Assembly: GCA_024278495.1 (NCBI GenBank)
Contig: JAJRTB010000074.1
Coordinates: 1 to 57,637, forward strand
Length of the DNA stretch: 57,637 nt
Source: Deltaproteobacteria bacterium
GTDB lineage: Bacteria > Desulfobacterota > Desulfobulbia > Desulfobulbales > Desulfobulbaceae
Reading direction: 5' to 3'
Position numbers and translations under genes: made by a program. Positions 35,897 to 41,114 of the stretch are shown in pieces (positions within the stretch are counted from its first letter, which is position 1; each line of letters opens with the position of its first letter). The notes beneath the pieces are model-generated. The model had not been told where the DNA came from. It ran no database searches and was given only the letters and a program-made list of their open reading frames with translations.

Positions 35897-37123
35897 CTAC
35901 CTGATGAGCTGGTTCATCTCAAAGATGGGCAGCAGGATCGACAGGACAATAAAGAGCATCATCACGCCCATGAACAGGATCATGAACGGCTCGATCAGCG
36001 AGGTCAGGGCCTTGATCTTGGCCTCCACCTCCTTTTCATAGTTCTGCGCCACCCTGGTCAGCATCTTCTCCAGTGAGGCGCTCTGCTCGCCCACCGCGAT
36101 CATCTGGACGATCATGGGTGGAAACCACCTGGACCGGCGCAGGGTCCCGGAGAGGGTGCCGCCCTTTTCCAGCTCCTCCGTGGCCTCGTCAATCACGTCC
36201 GAGAGCAGGACATTGTTGAAGATGTTCCTGACGATTCGCAGGGCGGTGACCAGGGGCACGCCTGACTGCAACAGGCTGCCCAGGGAACTGCCCAGCCGGG
36301 CCGAGGCTATCTTGATATTGAGATCACCAAACAGGGGCATGGTCAGTTTGAGCCTGTCCCAGGTCCTCCTTCCCCGGGGGCGGGAGACCGCATAGCGCAG
36401 GGCCAGGAAAACAGCGGCCAGGGCCAGTATGATCAGCCACCAGAACCGGGCCAGGAAATCGCTTACGTTGATCAGGATGATGGTGGGCAGGGGCAGGGCC
36501 TGTGCCGAATCGGCAAAGACCTTGGTGATATTGGGCACGACAATGGTCAGCAGCAGAAAGAGGATGGCGATACCCACCAGGGAGAGGATGACCGGATAGA
36601 TCAGGGCGACGCTTATCTTGGTCCGCATGGCCTGCTGGTTCTCGCCGAACTCGGCCAGCTGCTCCAGGACCACGTCAAGGGAACCGGACGCCTCGCCCGC
36701 CCTGACCATGTTGATGTAGATATTGGAGAAGAGACGCGGATGTTCGGACAGGGCGGCTGTAAAGGAGTTGCCCTCGTTGACCGCGTCCTTGAGCTGGGCA
36801 ATGATCCTGGTCAGGGCGGGGTTTGTGGTCTGTTCGATCAGACCGTTTAAGGCCGGGACCAGCGGGATGCCGGCACCGAGCATGGTGGCAAGCTGCCGGG
36901 TGGCCACATGGATTTCCTGTCGGCGGATACGCTGGAACGACAGGCCCGGGAAGCTGCCGGGCGCTCCTTTTTTCCTGGAAACCGGTTCAGTCTCGTTGAT
37001 TTCGACCGGATAGCCGCCGCCTTGCCGAATCTTGTTCCGGGCGGCGGCCAGGCTGTCGGCATCGATTATGCCTCTGGTCTTTTTGCCGCCCGCGTCAAGG
37101 GCGGTATATTCGTAAACCGGCAT
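35897..37123 (-). CDS. gspF: Type II secretion platform protein GspF
   Basis: 408 residues on the minus strand, facing gspE tail to tail. Two GspF domains (about residues 70-195 and 270-400) each contain the family pattern: QLATMLGAGIPLVPALNGL and LGSLLQSGVPLVTALRIV, with IYINMVRAGEASGSLD and VQMIAVGEQSASLEKML. Three membrane helices and the N-terminal MPVYEYTALDAGGKKTRG are diagnostic. GspF is the inner-membrane platform that GspE turns. In most operons it follows gspE in the same direction; here it has its own promoter somewhere in 37124-37526. Confidence 0.95.
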   Translation of the reverse strand: MPVYEYTALDAGGKKTRGIIDADSLAAARNKIRQGGGYPVEINETEPVSRKKGAPGSFPGLSFQRIRRQEIHVATRQLATMLGAGIPLVPALNGLIEQTTNPALTRIIAQLKDAVNEGNSFTAALSEHPRLFSNIYINMVRAGEASGSLDVVLEQLAEFGENQQAMRTKISVALIYPVILSLVGIAILFLLLTIVVPNITKVFADSAQALPLPTIILINVSDFLARFWWLIILALAAVFLALRYAVSRPRGRRTWDRLKLTMPLFGDLNIKIASARLGSSLGSLLQSGVPLVTALRIVRNIFNNVLLSDVIDEATEELEKGGTLSGTLRRSRWFPPMIVQMIAVGEQSASLEKMLTRVAQNYEKEVEAKIKALTSLIEPFMILFMGVMMLFIVLSILLPIFEMNQLIR

Positions 37124-37526
37124 AATCAGTGGGTTGCAGAATAAGGGGCCGTGCCGCCGGGGCCGCGCGGCCGATGAAGATCCCGGTTCCCCCGGGTGCG
37201 GGTGGAGCCGGGTTTGTCCTCATGCTTTGTTTTCAGTATCATCACACCATTATACAGGTCATATACCTGCTTGGAAACGAAAAAAAACGCGGTTGGATCC
37301 GGCACAGGGACAGTGCCGGCGACGTAACCAATCACAGGGTACAATGAAATAATCTATAAAACCGCTTACGCGGCGACAACTGTTTTCAGTTGCGGCCGGT
37401 TATGCTACTATATACACGTGACGGCACGGCAGGACGCAGGAACAGGTCACTGCCGCCGCACCAGAGGAGAACGCTCACGGATTCGGGTTTATGAAAAAAT
37501 ATTTCTGATAAAGGGAGAAAAGAGTT
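37124..37526. other. Divergent promoter region of gspF and the selenoprotein gene
   Basis: About 400 bases without a gene. It holds several dyads: CAGGT-CATAT-ACCTG near 37257, CGGCAC/GTGCCG around 37300-37319, and CAACTG (37377-37382) with CAGTTG (37387-37392). It also holds the dispersed repeat core at 37321-37340. A possible promoter for the selenoprotein is TTTTCA (37383-37388), 17 bases, TACTAT (37406-37411). The ribosome site GGGAG (37513-37517) belongs to the selenoprotein. Confidence 0.55.
37321..37340 (-). repeat. Dispersed palindromic repeat core
   Basis: GACGTAACCAATCACAGGGT here is identical to 43184-43203. It is the reverse complement form (with 3 differences) of the core ACCCTGTGACGGGTTAC at 43152-43168. 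Confidence 0.75.
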
Positions 37527-37757
37527 ATGAAGGTTACCATTGAATACTGCTCGGCGTGAAACTACAAACCGCAAGCCTCAGGTCTGGAGGCTGAATTACG
37601 GGAACAGTTTGGCGCGGACATGGAGGTGGAGCTGATTGCCGGTTCCGGCGGTATCTTTGATGTCCGTGCGGACGGCCGCCTGGTGTTTTCAAAAAAAGAA
37701 ACAGGACGTTTTCCCGACAGGGGTGAGGTCTCCGGGAGGATCCGGCAGGACGGCTGA
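37527..37757 (+). CDS. SelW/Rdx-like selenoprotein (in-frame TGA = selenocysteine)
   Basis: 76 residues from the ATG at 37527 (GGGAG at 37513-37517, 9-base spacing) to TGA 37755-37757. The codon at 37557-37559 is TGA in frame; read as selenocysteine it gives EYCSAU-NYKPQ, that is Cys8-x-x-Sec11, the redox motif of the Rdx family (SelW, SelT, SelH) followed by the family YKP. The rest (LEAELREQFGADMEVELIAG, GIFDVRADGRLVFSKK) matches the thioredoxin-like SelW fold, including the GxFDV and GxxVFSK stretch. A SECIS-type hairpin follows the TGA. Such proteins are small cytoplasmic thiol oxidoreductases of uncertain partner. Standard gene finding splits or misses it because TGA is read as stop. Confidence 0.9.
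37574..37592 (+). promoter_or_regulatory. Bacterial SECIS element
   Basis: AGCCTC (37574-37579) pairs perfectly with GAGGCT (37587-37592) around the loop AGGTCTG (37580-37586). The apical AGGUCU is the same as in the E. coli fdhF SECIS recognised by SelB. The loop starts 20 bases after the TGA (37557-37559), within the allowed distance. It lies inside the coding sequence, as bacterial SECIS elements do. Confidence 0.85.
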
Positions 37758-37771
37758 GCCGGCGCCACGCC

Positions 37772-38224
37772 TCAGGATGATTCGTTCCGGCGGCAGAATT
37801 CCAGGAAATCAGCGAGCATTTCCCTGTTTTCTCCGGGACAGGTCTCGAGGAATTTGATAAAGGTGACCATTCTGTCAATAATTTCAGAGGGCGCGGCGTG
37901 TTCGACCCGGCAGGCACCTGTTTCAGCCAGCTCCTGATCAATGCCCAGCACCTCGGTAAAGAAGCGCTTGAGCGCGTTGTGGCGTCGGACCACGTCCTCG
38001 GCAACGGTCCGGCCCTGGTCTGTCAGGGTAATGGCCTCGTAGGGCGCGTAGTTGATGAGCCCCTTGGTGGCCAGGGAGCGCAGGGCCTCGGTAACCGAGG
38101 CGCCGCTGACATTGAGGGCCGCGATAATGTCCTTGCCGCGGGCTTCCTGCTTTTCGTCGATGATATGGTAAATGGCCTCGATATAATCCTCGAGGCTGGC
38201 GCTGAGGCTGCTGGGCTGGGGCAT
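37772..38224 (-). CDS. DtxR/MntR-type metal-dependent transcriptional regulator
   Basis: 150 residues from the ATG at 38224 (GGAG about 8 bases upstream on the minus strand); an upstream ATG at 38311 would add 29 poorly matching residues. An N-terminal winged helix (SASLEDYIEAIYHIIDEKQE, then GASVTEALRSLATKGLI) is followed by a dimerisation/metal domain (RHNALKRFFTEVLGIDQELA, GACRVEHAAPSEIIDRMVTF) with the conserved Cys, Glu and His ligands. No SH3-like third domain, so it is of the short MntR/TroR class. It represses genes when Fe or Mn is plentiful. It converges on the selenoprotein gene with a 14-base gap; targets are unknown. Confidence 0.9.
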   Translation of the reverse strand: MPQPSSLSASLEDYIEAIYHIIDEKQEARGKDIIAALNVSGASVTEALRSLATKGLINYAPYEAITLTDQGRTVAEDVVRRHNALKRFFTEVLGIDQELAETGACRVEHAAPSEIIDRMVTFIKFLETCPGENREMLADFLEFCRRNESS

Positions 38225-38335
38225 GGCGCGCTCCGGTCCTTTGGGGTTGGAGAGGGAGTGTTGAGGCGGTGTCCTTTCATTAAAAATACAGGGTGGCCGG
38301 GACAGCGTCAAGGAGATTTCCCGAAGATGCGGTGT

Positions 38336-38382: not shown

Positions 38383-40071
38383 ATGCTTCTTGAACTTCGT
38401 ATCCGTAACATGGCTCTTATTGACTCCCTGGAGCTTGATTTTTCCGGGAGCGGACTGATCGTTTTAACCGGCGAGACCGGGGCCGGAAAATCGATCATCA
38501 TGCAGGCCCTGCATCTGCTCAGCGGCGGTCGCGGAGCTGTCTCCTGGATACGTGACGACCGGGACCAGGCCGTGGTGGAGGCCCTCTTCTCCCATCGGGA
38601 ATCCCAGGCAGAGCTGCGCTCCCTTTTTGATGAGCATGGTCTTGACGCGGCAGGCGAAACTATTATCCGCCGGGTTATCAGGCAGAACGGGCGCAGCCGT
38701 TTTTACGTGAACGACCGGCTGGTGACGGCCGGTCTGGTCGGCGACCTGACCGGTAACCTGATCAACATAGCTTCCCAGCACGACCATCAGCAGTTGCTGG
38801 TTGCCGGGCGTCACCTGGATATTCTCGATACCTTTGGTGAGCTGGCGGACCTGCGGGATGCGTTCGGCGCTCTGTATCGGCGTTGGCAGGAGGCTGCCAA
38901 CCGCCTGGCGGATTTAAAACGGACCGAACAGGATAAGGAGCGACAACGAGATTTCCTGAACCACCAGCTCCGGGAGATCCATGACGCGGCCGTGGTCCCG
39001 GGTGAGGATCTGGCCCTGGCTGAGGAACGTGATCTGCTCAAATCGTCCGCCGCCCTGGTCGAGCTGGCCGGCCAGAGCCTTCATGTCATGCAGTCCGGTA
39101 TGCTTGAGAACCTCTCTCTTGTGCGCCGTAATATTGAGCAGGCTGCTTCCATGGACAAGGGGCTCAAGGAGCTGGCCGAACGGATTGTTTCCACCTGTTA
39201 CGAGGTGGAAGATCTGGAACTGGCCCTGCGGGACTACCTGGGTTCCATCCCGCGCGACCGGCACCGGCTGGAGGAGATCAATGAACGGCTGGCCCTGTTG
39301 AAACAGTTGATGCGCAAGTACGGCCCCACCCTGGAGAATGTTATCGAGTTTGGTGAACAGGCCCGGCAGGAGCTGGAAGCACTCGATGACGTGGAACATG
39401 AGATTGAACTCCTGGAAAAGGATGTGGCAGCACTTGAGAAGGAGCTGCTTGCGGCGGCGACCGGTCTGTCTGACAAACGGCGCCGGGCCGCGGACCGGCT
39501 CAGTATGTCCATGCAGGCGGAACTCGCCTCATTGAGTTTTCCCGGGGCCGTGTTCGAAGTCCCGGTCCGGACAGCGGCAGGGGATGATCTTGCCGGTATC
39601 AGCGCCAGGGGCGCCGACCAGGTCGAATTTCTGTTTTCGGCCAACCCGGGCGTGGAGCCCAAGCCGCTGGCCACCATTGCTTCCGGTGGTGAGCTTTCCC
39701 GGTTGATGCTGGCCATGAAATGTCTGCTGGCCCGTCGAGACCAGGTCGATACCGTGGTTTTTGACGAGGTGGACGCCGGTATCGGGGGCAAGGCCGCCGA
39801 GGCCGTGGCCGCCAAAATCGTTGAGTTGGCCGGACATCACCAGGTCTTTTGTATCACCCACCTAGCGCAGATCGCGGCCCGGGCCGATGAACATTTCATG
39901 GTCAGCAAGGAGGTGGTGGACGGCGGGACCGTTTCCACCATCACGCGGCTGACGGATGAGCAGCGGGTTATGGAGCTTGCCCGGATGCTCGGCGGCGAGA
40001 ACCTGACCAGCCAGACAATCGCCTTTGCCAGGGAGCTGCTGGAAGGCGGCGCCGCACGGGAGGCGCTATGA
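38383..40071 (+). CDS. recN: DNA repair protein RecN
   Basis: 562 residues of an SMC-like ATPase. The start MLLELRIRNMALIDSLELDF and Walker A GETGAGKSIIMQAL are typical. The middle is a long coiled coil (about residues 150-370), and the end has the signature ASGGELSRLMLAMKCLL, Walker B TVVFDEVDAGIGG and HLAQIAA. RecN works in recombinational repair of double-strand breaks, holding DNA ends together. It overlaps the next gene by ATGA. Many recN genes are under LexA control, but no LexA box was recognised here. Confidence 0.96.
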   Translation: MLLELRIRNMALIDSLELDFSGSGLIVLTGETGAGKSIIMQALHLLSGGRGAVSWIRDDRDQAVVEALFSHRESQAELRSLFDEHGLDAAGETIIRRVIRQNGRSRFYVNDRLVTAGLVGDLTGNLINIASQHDHQQLLVAGRHLDILDTFGELADLRDAFGALYRRWQEAANRLADLKRTEQDKERQRDFLNHQLREIHDAAVVPGEDLALAEERDLLKSSAALVELAGQSLHVMQSGMLENLSLVRRNIEQAASMDKGLKELAERIVSTCYEVEDLELALRDYLGSIPRDRHRLEEINERLALLKQLMRKYGPTLENVIEFGEQARQELEALDDVEHEIELLEKDVAALEKELLAAATGLSDKRRRAADRLSMSMQAELASLSFPGAVFEVPVRTAAGDDLAGISARGADQVEFLFSANPGVEPKPLATIASGGELSRLMLAMKCLLARRDQVDTVVFDEVDAGIGGKAAEAVAAKIVELAGHHQVFCITHLAQIAARADEHFMVSKEVVDGGTVSTITRLTDEQRVMELARMLGGENLTSQTIAFARELLEGGAAREAL

Positions 40072-41114
40072 GTGATATCAAGGCATTGGGATTGTATTCA
40101 GGCGGGCTTGATTCGCTGTTGGCCTGCCGGATCATCATGGCCCAGGGGATCCGGGTAACGGCCCTGAAGTTTGTGACGCCGTTTTTTGATGACGCCCTGC
40201 TCGGGCGGCGGGAGGAGTTTCAGACTGAGGTGCGTGAAAAGTACGGCATCCATGTGCGCCTGGTTGATTTGAGTGACGGCTATATCGATCTGCTTCACAA
40301 CCCGGCCCACGGCTACGGCAAGAATTTCAACCCCTGTATCGACTGCAAGATTTTCATGCTGACCCGGGCCCGCCGGCTCATGGACGAGCTGGGCGCTTCT
40401 TTTCTCTTTACCGGTGAGGTGCTGGGGCAGCGGCCCATGTCCCAGCGGCGGGACACCCTGCGTGTTATCGAGCGCGACAGCGGTTGTGAGGATATTCTGC
40501 TCAGACCCCTTTGCGCCAGACGGCTGCCGGAAACGCGGCCTGAACGGGAGGGACTGGTTGATCGGGACAAGCTGTACGGTTTCACCGGCCGTGGTCGGCG
40601 TCCCCAGATGGAGCTGGCCGAGGCCTTCGGCATTACGGAATATCCGGCTCCGGCCGGAGGCTGCATCCTGACCGATCCCAACCTGGGCGCAAGGATAGAA
40701 CAGTATTACCAGGGCCGGAGCAGCGCCCTGGGCGGTGAGTTCCAGGCCGACGATATCCGGTTGCTCCTGGTGGGGCGTCAGTTTATGCTGCCCGGCGGCT
40801 ACTGGTTCGTGCTCGGGCGTAACCGGCGGGAAAACGACAGGATTGAAAAACTGGTCCGGTCCGGGGACTGGGTCCTGCGGATGGTTGATCGGCCCGGGCC
40901 GACAGGTCTGTTGCGAAGCCCCGGCGTTGAACCGGCGGTAACGGGCCGGGCCGGCGGGATCTCGGCCAAGGCGGCGTCCCTGGTGGCCCGTTATGCCAGG
41001 AAAATCAACGGCCGGCCGGCCCCGGGCCGGGTCAGGCTGGAGTGCGGCGAAATTTCCTGCAGTGTTGCCGCCACCCCCCCTGATGACCGGATGCTCGGCG
41101 CCTGGCAGTTCTGA
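40068..41114 (+). CDS. PP-loop ATPase related to tRNA-thiolating enzymes (MnmA/ThiI-like)
   Basis: 348 residues. The N-terminal PP-loop LGLYSGGLDSLLACRII binds ATP and activates a substrate by adenylation. Further on are NFNPCIDCKIFMLTRARRLM, ASFLFTGEVLGQRPMSQR and EYPAPAGGCILTDPNLG, as in the family of MnmA-like tRNA 2-thiouridylase relatives found in anaerobes. The C-terminal 110 residues (from about FMLPGGYWFVLGRNRREND) resemble the NFACT-R/DUF814-type RNA-binding domain. It is probably a tRNA sulfur-transfer enzyme; the exact base is unknown. Conserved Cys residues in the first part could carry sulfur. Cotranscribed with recN. Confidence 0.75.
   Translation: MSDIKALGLYSGGLDSLLACRIIMAQGIRVTALKFVTPFFDDALLGRREEFQTEVREKYGIHVRLVDLSDGYIDLLHNPAHGYGKNFNPCIDCKIFMLTRARRLMDELGASFLFTGEVLGQRPMSQRRDTLRVIERDSGCEDILLRPLCARRLPETRPEREGLVDRDKLYGFTGRGRRPQMELAEAFGITEYPAPAGGCILTDPNLGARIEQYYQGRSSALGGEFQADDIRLLLVGRQFMLPGGYWFVLGRNRRENDRIEKLVRSGDWVLRMVDRPGPTGLLRSPGVEPAVTGRAGGISAKAASLVARYARKINGRPAPGRVRLECGEISCSVAATPPDDRMLGAWQF

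Follow-up and report, generated by a model that had tools for sequence, protein, structure and literature searches.

The selW locus and its neighbours

The window, i.e. the whole stretch of 57,637 nucleotides that was analysed, carries on its forward strand a selW-like selenoprotein gene at 37527..37757. Its frame comprises 76 codons including the selenocysteine (Sec) codon, a single in-frame TGA at codon 11 (37557..37559), and ends at another TGA (37755-37757). With the internal TGA translated as U, the protein reads MKVTIEYCSAUNYKPQASGLEAELREQFGADMEVELIAGSGGIFDVRADGRLVFSKKETGRFPDRGEVSGRIRQDG and contains the motif C8-S-A-U11 followed by NYKP. The sequence-only reading had described this frame, with the same coordinates, a lone TGA at codon 11 and a Cys8-x-x-Sec11 redox site of the Rdx type ahead of NYKP, and the translation agrees with it throughout. 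A likely ribosome binding site, GGGAG (37513..37517, forward strand), lies 9 bases 5' of the ATG according to our reading of the sequence; the promoter-like and terminator-like sites near selW are weak. In the ORF list of the window, no table-11 ORF of 50 residues or more corresponds to the selW frame. That gene finders would pass over this locus, as the sequence-only reading expected, is plausible; an NCBI model (NF041051) does hit the protein above its cut-off.

We compared the 76-residue translation (TGA as U) with family profiles. The Pfam Rdx profile (PF10262) matches residues 2-74 of 76 with 80.1 bits (cut-off 22.6; E 1.4e-22), NCBIfam NF041051 matches nearly the full length with 100.4 bits (cut-off 88), and TIGR02174 reaches 67.4 bits (cut-off 34.2). 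The portion after the TGA scores by itself against Rdx with an E value of 1e-14. Since the similarity to Rdx covers the full length and also holds in the post-TGA part, the frame is coding both upstream and downstream of the codon-11 TGA. The membership in the Rdx/SelW family that had been proposed is thus recovered by profiles, and by the structure matches given below.

The selW gene stands alone between a divergent upstream gene and a convergent downstream gene. The former (35897..37123, reverse strand) encodes a type II secretion/pilus assembly F protein (Pfam T2SSF, E 1.1e-65). The latter (37772..38311, reverse strand), separated from selW by a gap of 14 bases, encodes a DtxR-type metal-dependent repressor; the coordinates are those of the longest ORF, and the start is possibly an internal ATG near 38224. 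The iron-dependent repressor domains found in this product (Fe_dep_repr_C, E 2e-21; Fe_dep_repress, E 1.3e-14) confirm that selW converges on a DtxR-type regulator gene. Beyond it lies a DNA repair gene (38383..40071, forward strand; Pfam SMC_N, E 1.9e-17), which we take to be recN-like from what we know of this gene family. Downstream of recN, a gene at 40068-41114 (forward strand) combines a ThiI-like domain with an NFACT-R_2 RNA-binding domain, and it adjoins recN in several relatives too.

The order T2SS F, SelW, DtxR, recN is conserved. The comparison took in 75 further selW loci, some of them on short contigs or from distant phyla; a DtxR neighbour was found in 30 and a RecN neighbour in 29, all within the family and its close relatives. 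From gene order, these conserved neighbours support the view that selW would be a stable, vertically kept gene. The neighbourhood gives no direct hint of its function.

Codon 11 and the downstream hairpin in homologous genes

We searched for selW in 74 genomes from the family to which the source genome belongs. The gene was found in 43 of them, and in all 43 the frame contains a single internal TGA. A wider scan covered a set in which each prokaryote species is represented by one genome. Codon 11 lay outside the peptides used as queries, and the scan is therefore unbiased toward TGA. It yielded 47 loci, in Desulfobulbaceae and their relatives, Planctomycetota, Gemmatimonadota, Krumholzibacteria, Bacillota and others. 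Once duplicates had been removed, 72 distinct sequences readable at codon 11 remained, window included. Codon 11 is TGA in 69 of these and TGC in the other 3 (68 TGA out of 71 without the window), and no residue other than Sec or Cys was found at this codon among the 72 sequences. The unrelated residues or broken frames at codon 11 that the sequence-only reading had named as evidence against itself are thus not what the homologues display, and the downstream codons are conserved.

A candidate SECIS hairpin, AGCCUC-AGGUCUG-GAGGCU, lies at 37574..37592 on the forward strand. Its 6-bp stem is formed by a 5' arm (37574-37579) and a 3' arm (37587-37592), which enclose the loop AGGUCUG (37580-37586) with an invariant G at 37582. 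Such a stem with this loop had been announced exactly 20 bases after the TGA; the stem and the loop are indeed there, but in the window the stem begins 14 bases past the TGA and it is the loop that begins at 20. The apical loop is small, carries a G and starts within the range of 16-37 reported for bacterial SECIS elements after the UGA (PMC10778597). In addition, epsilonproteobacterial selenoproteins are described with a 5/6-bp hairpin and an invariant guanosine (PMC4607533), a description that the selW hairpin and the invariant G of its Sec homologues match. A search of the hairpin against Rfam matched no family and returned nothing relevant.

By itself, the hairpin is not statistically strong; it is the protein homology across the TGA and the conservation in relatives that lift it above chance. 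In single-sequence folding, 21 of 200 shuffled sequences were equally stable (z = -1.3), and because of this low z value stability was dropped as evidence, conservation and synonymous resampling being taken instead. Of the 2004 TGAs of the window (both strands), 48 are followed at a comparable distance by some 6-bp hairpin that contains a G. The codon-11 TGA of selW is the sole case among those 48 with GGUCU in the loop.

For the resampling, synonymous codons were drawn at each gene's own usage in 2000 trials, from 69 Sec sequences and over five conserved pairs. The stem pairs are formed in 330 out of 345 observed cases vs. a resampled mean of 231 and a maximum of 256, figures that carry no formal probability, as the register was picked with the alignment in view, from sequences that are related to one another. 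Codon choice follows the same pattern: the Ser codons immediately 5' of the loop are TCC in 38 of 39 cases, and Ser at the loop codon is AGT in 28 of 28, while AGT accounts for 12 out of 220 Ser codons elsewhere in the same genes. The alignment of Sec homologues also displays paired changes on both sides of the stem, one pair occurring as C-G, T-A or G-C and the next one as T-A or G-C.

The G of the loop is present in all 69 Sec homologues. The three Cys (TGC) versions, L031, L040 and L047, all from Planctomycetota, are alone in lacking both this G and the hairpin, their upper-stem pairing being gone. The trio represents an exchange between Sec and Cys with a matching change of the RNA element.

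At the first position of the loop, 66 of the 69 Sec sequences have a C, which pairs with a G and closes a loop of 5 bases. The window is the only one to have an A, which opens this last pair and gives the 7-base loop AGGUCUG, an exception among the relatives. This loop is presumably that of the fdhF SECIS, as had been put forward. It is present in the window, but the identity with fdhF is weakened as an argument for a SECIS element, given the A found nowhere else in the set.

Selenocysteine machinery in the source genome and its family

The source genome is a draft of 2.55 Mb in 306 contigs, 93.75% complete. It contains a full-length selB (MREIILGTAGHVDHGKT...; 375.9 bits vs. a cut-off of 242) and a tRNA-Sec gene (selC; 73.7 bits, gathering threshold 47), which ARAGORN confirms with the anticodon tca. 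Formate dehydrogenase FdhA is also encoded with a TGA at the catalytic position, in HCARYUHSATVAG (L120) and in HQARIUHSTTVAG (L123). A second FdhA-like frame, L121 (G000:C172:1-1743), has one TGA and one TAA inside and is possibly broken or running off the contig end.

Searches of the draft with profiles and with the protein of a congener turned up neither selA nor selD, and no selA was seen adjacent to selB. A 19-bit match to selD was set aside; from its sequence, the ORF concerned resembles purM, an AIR-synthase relative. Of the four genes that the sequence-only reading proposed to look for, selB and selC, whose absence it had regarded as refuting, are thus present, and selA and selD are not recovered from the draft. 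Both of the latter occur in 6 of 6 congeners, and each occurs in 60 of the 74 family genomes. Given the completeness of the draft and its 306 contigs, single genes may be missing, and the simplest reading of this absence is that both genes probably fell in assembly gaps. Most selD genes of the family (L108-L119 and those of other family genomes) carry one in-frame TGA themselves, and several family genomes have two selD copies.

Across the family, the five genomes of genus g12 are without selA, without a full-strength match to tRNA-Sec or selD, and without SelW. SelW was also found in none of the 24 family-mates of genus g7 (G016-G039), though most of them have the Sec machinery; from these genomes, its absence in g7 appears to be specific to the lineage.

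Predicted role, alternative readings and known relatives

The AlphaFold model of SelW (pLDDT 91.9) has a first strand at residues 2-8 and a first helix at residues 14-31. In this model, the C-x-x-U site is placed between the two, as in thioredoxin-like redox proteins. The best PDB matches are bacterial SelW-related proteins (TM 0.90-0.94; 2fa8, TM 0.91), followed by human MIEN1 and mouse SelW (2npb), and then by thioredoxins. The bacterial structures with this likeness in fold (2fa8, 2ojl, 2obk, 2oka and 2p0g) are about 28-35% identical to SelW, have longer chains and are named SelW-related or hypothetical in their database entries. Mouse selenoprotein W shares the fold class and the family (E 0.00041 by sequence). 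It is 26% identical in the fold alignment, and its SECIS, as in eukaryotes, is in the 3' UTR, whereas that of the window selW is inside the coding region. SelW thus combines a full-length match to Rdx/SelW profiles, a C-x-x-U/C motif after the first strand and a thioredoxin-like SelW fold. Its best-supported and most likely role is that of a predicted thiol/selenol oxidoreductase.

We consider it very highly probable that selW forms a unit of its own, a single gene coding for a small selenoprotein with a thioredoxin fold, which belongs to the SelW-like branch of the Rdx family, with Sec inserted via SECIS and SelB and with a putative redox role. This reading draws on computed homology and fold, on the conserved TGA with its Cys exchange, on the conserved hairpin, and on the presence of selB and tRNA-Sec. 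In the source organism, the ribosome would reach the UGA at codon 11, and the hairpin just 3' of it would recruit SelB carrying Sec-tRNA(Sec). Insertion of Sec would then complete the C-x-x-U redox site, which follows strand 1 and precedes helix 1. The resulting small cytosolic protein would act as a thiol/selenol oxidoreductase, in which a Cys8-Sec11 selenenylsulfide may pass electrons to or from a partner.

What counts against the main reading is that the pathway is incomplete as assembled, without selA and selD, that the hairpin alone is not unusually stable, and that it has no Rfam match. The lack of the two genes would also fit a selenoprotein gene fallen silent in the source species, the selA and selD steps having been lost so that UGA terminates translation. 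We hold this to be very improbable, since selB, tRNA-Sec and the TGA-bearing FdhA genes are retained, selA and selD occur in all six congeners, a draft of this kind can lack single genes, and the SelW frame and its hairpin are intact. That the species lost selA and selD and nevertheless translates UGA as Sec through some unrecognised pathway, making SelW and FdhA without the standard enzymes, seems to us extremely unlikely.

A TGA is one base away from TGC, which three homologues have at codon 11, and a Cys-type Rdx gene could have been broken by a nonsense mutation (a pseudogene) or misread by a TGC-to-TGA sequencing error. This explanation, to which we give next to no probability, was rejected because the TGA is kept in 68 other distinct sequences, from independent assemblies and several phyla. 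Moreover, the protein downstream of the TGA is conserved, and the hairpin and the loop G accompany the TGA versions and are missing from the three TGC versions. An open frame under recoding alone is, on the other hand, no proof of Sec, and the UGA might be read without selenium, either as another amino acid (e.g. Trp or Cys) or through ordinary read-through of a stop codon. The chance of this is minimal in our view: Cys is the only alternative seen at codon 11, within a C-x-x-C/U site, the loop of the conserved hairpin falls inside the reported range (PMC10778597), the genus that lacks Sec machinery has no selW, and TGA is used as a normal stop as well, including at the end of selW itself.

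The selenoprotein reading agrees with what has been described in related bacteria. SelW-like selenoproteins were listed in 2006 in Desulfotalea psychrophila and other Deltaproteobacteria (PMC1794560). The D. psychrophila protein is likened to SelW here by published description and not by sequence: both belong to the SelW-like selenoproteins and to the order Desulfobulbales, and the difference is, as far as known, the species only. In marine bacteria, SelW-like proteins are one of the major families of the Sargasso Sea, with 48 sequences (PMC1088965), and with 427 sequences they outnumber every other selenoprotein family in the Global Ocean Sampling (PMC2398784). They share with the window selW the C-x-x-U motif, a SECIS loop guanosine directly past the UGA and a SelW-related family, and no substantial difference from them was found. 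The NCBIfam model NF041051 (SelTWH_Campy, SelT/SelW/SelH family (seleno)protein) is named for Campylobacter members, while the host of selW is close to Desulfobulbaceae. A 2026 review treats the bacterial SelW-like proteins (PF10262, CxxU) as predicted with high confidence and does not list them as experimentally verified (PMC13188914).

SelW genes wholly missed by annotation have been documented (PMC4607533), and selW is a short selenoprotein gene of the kind prone to loss in ordinary gene calling. Because SelW-like selenoproteins of related bacteria have been on record since 2006, it constitutes an annotation correction and no new kind of thing. Its conserved neighbourhood, with a DtxR-type regulator gene and recN, may serve as a lead and is not functional evidence. 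The approximately 70 homologues form a compact set in which exchange between Sec and Cys is accompanied by the corresponding appearance or disappearance of the SECIS hairpin.
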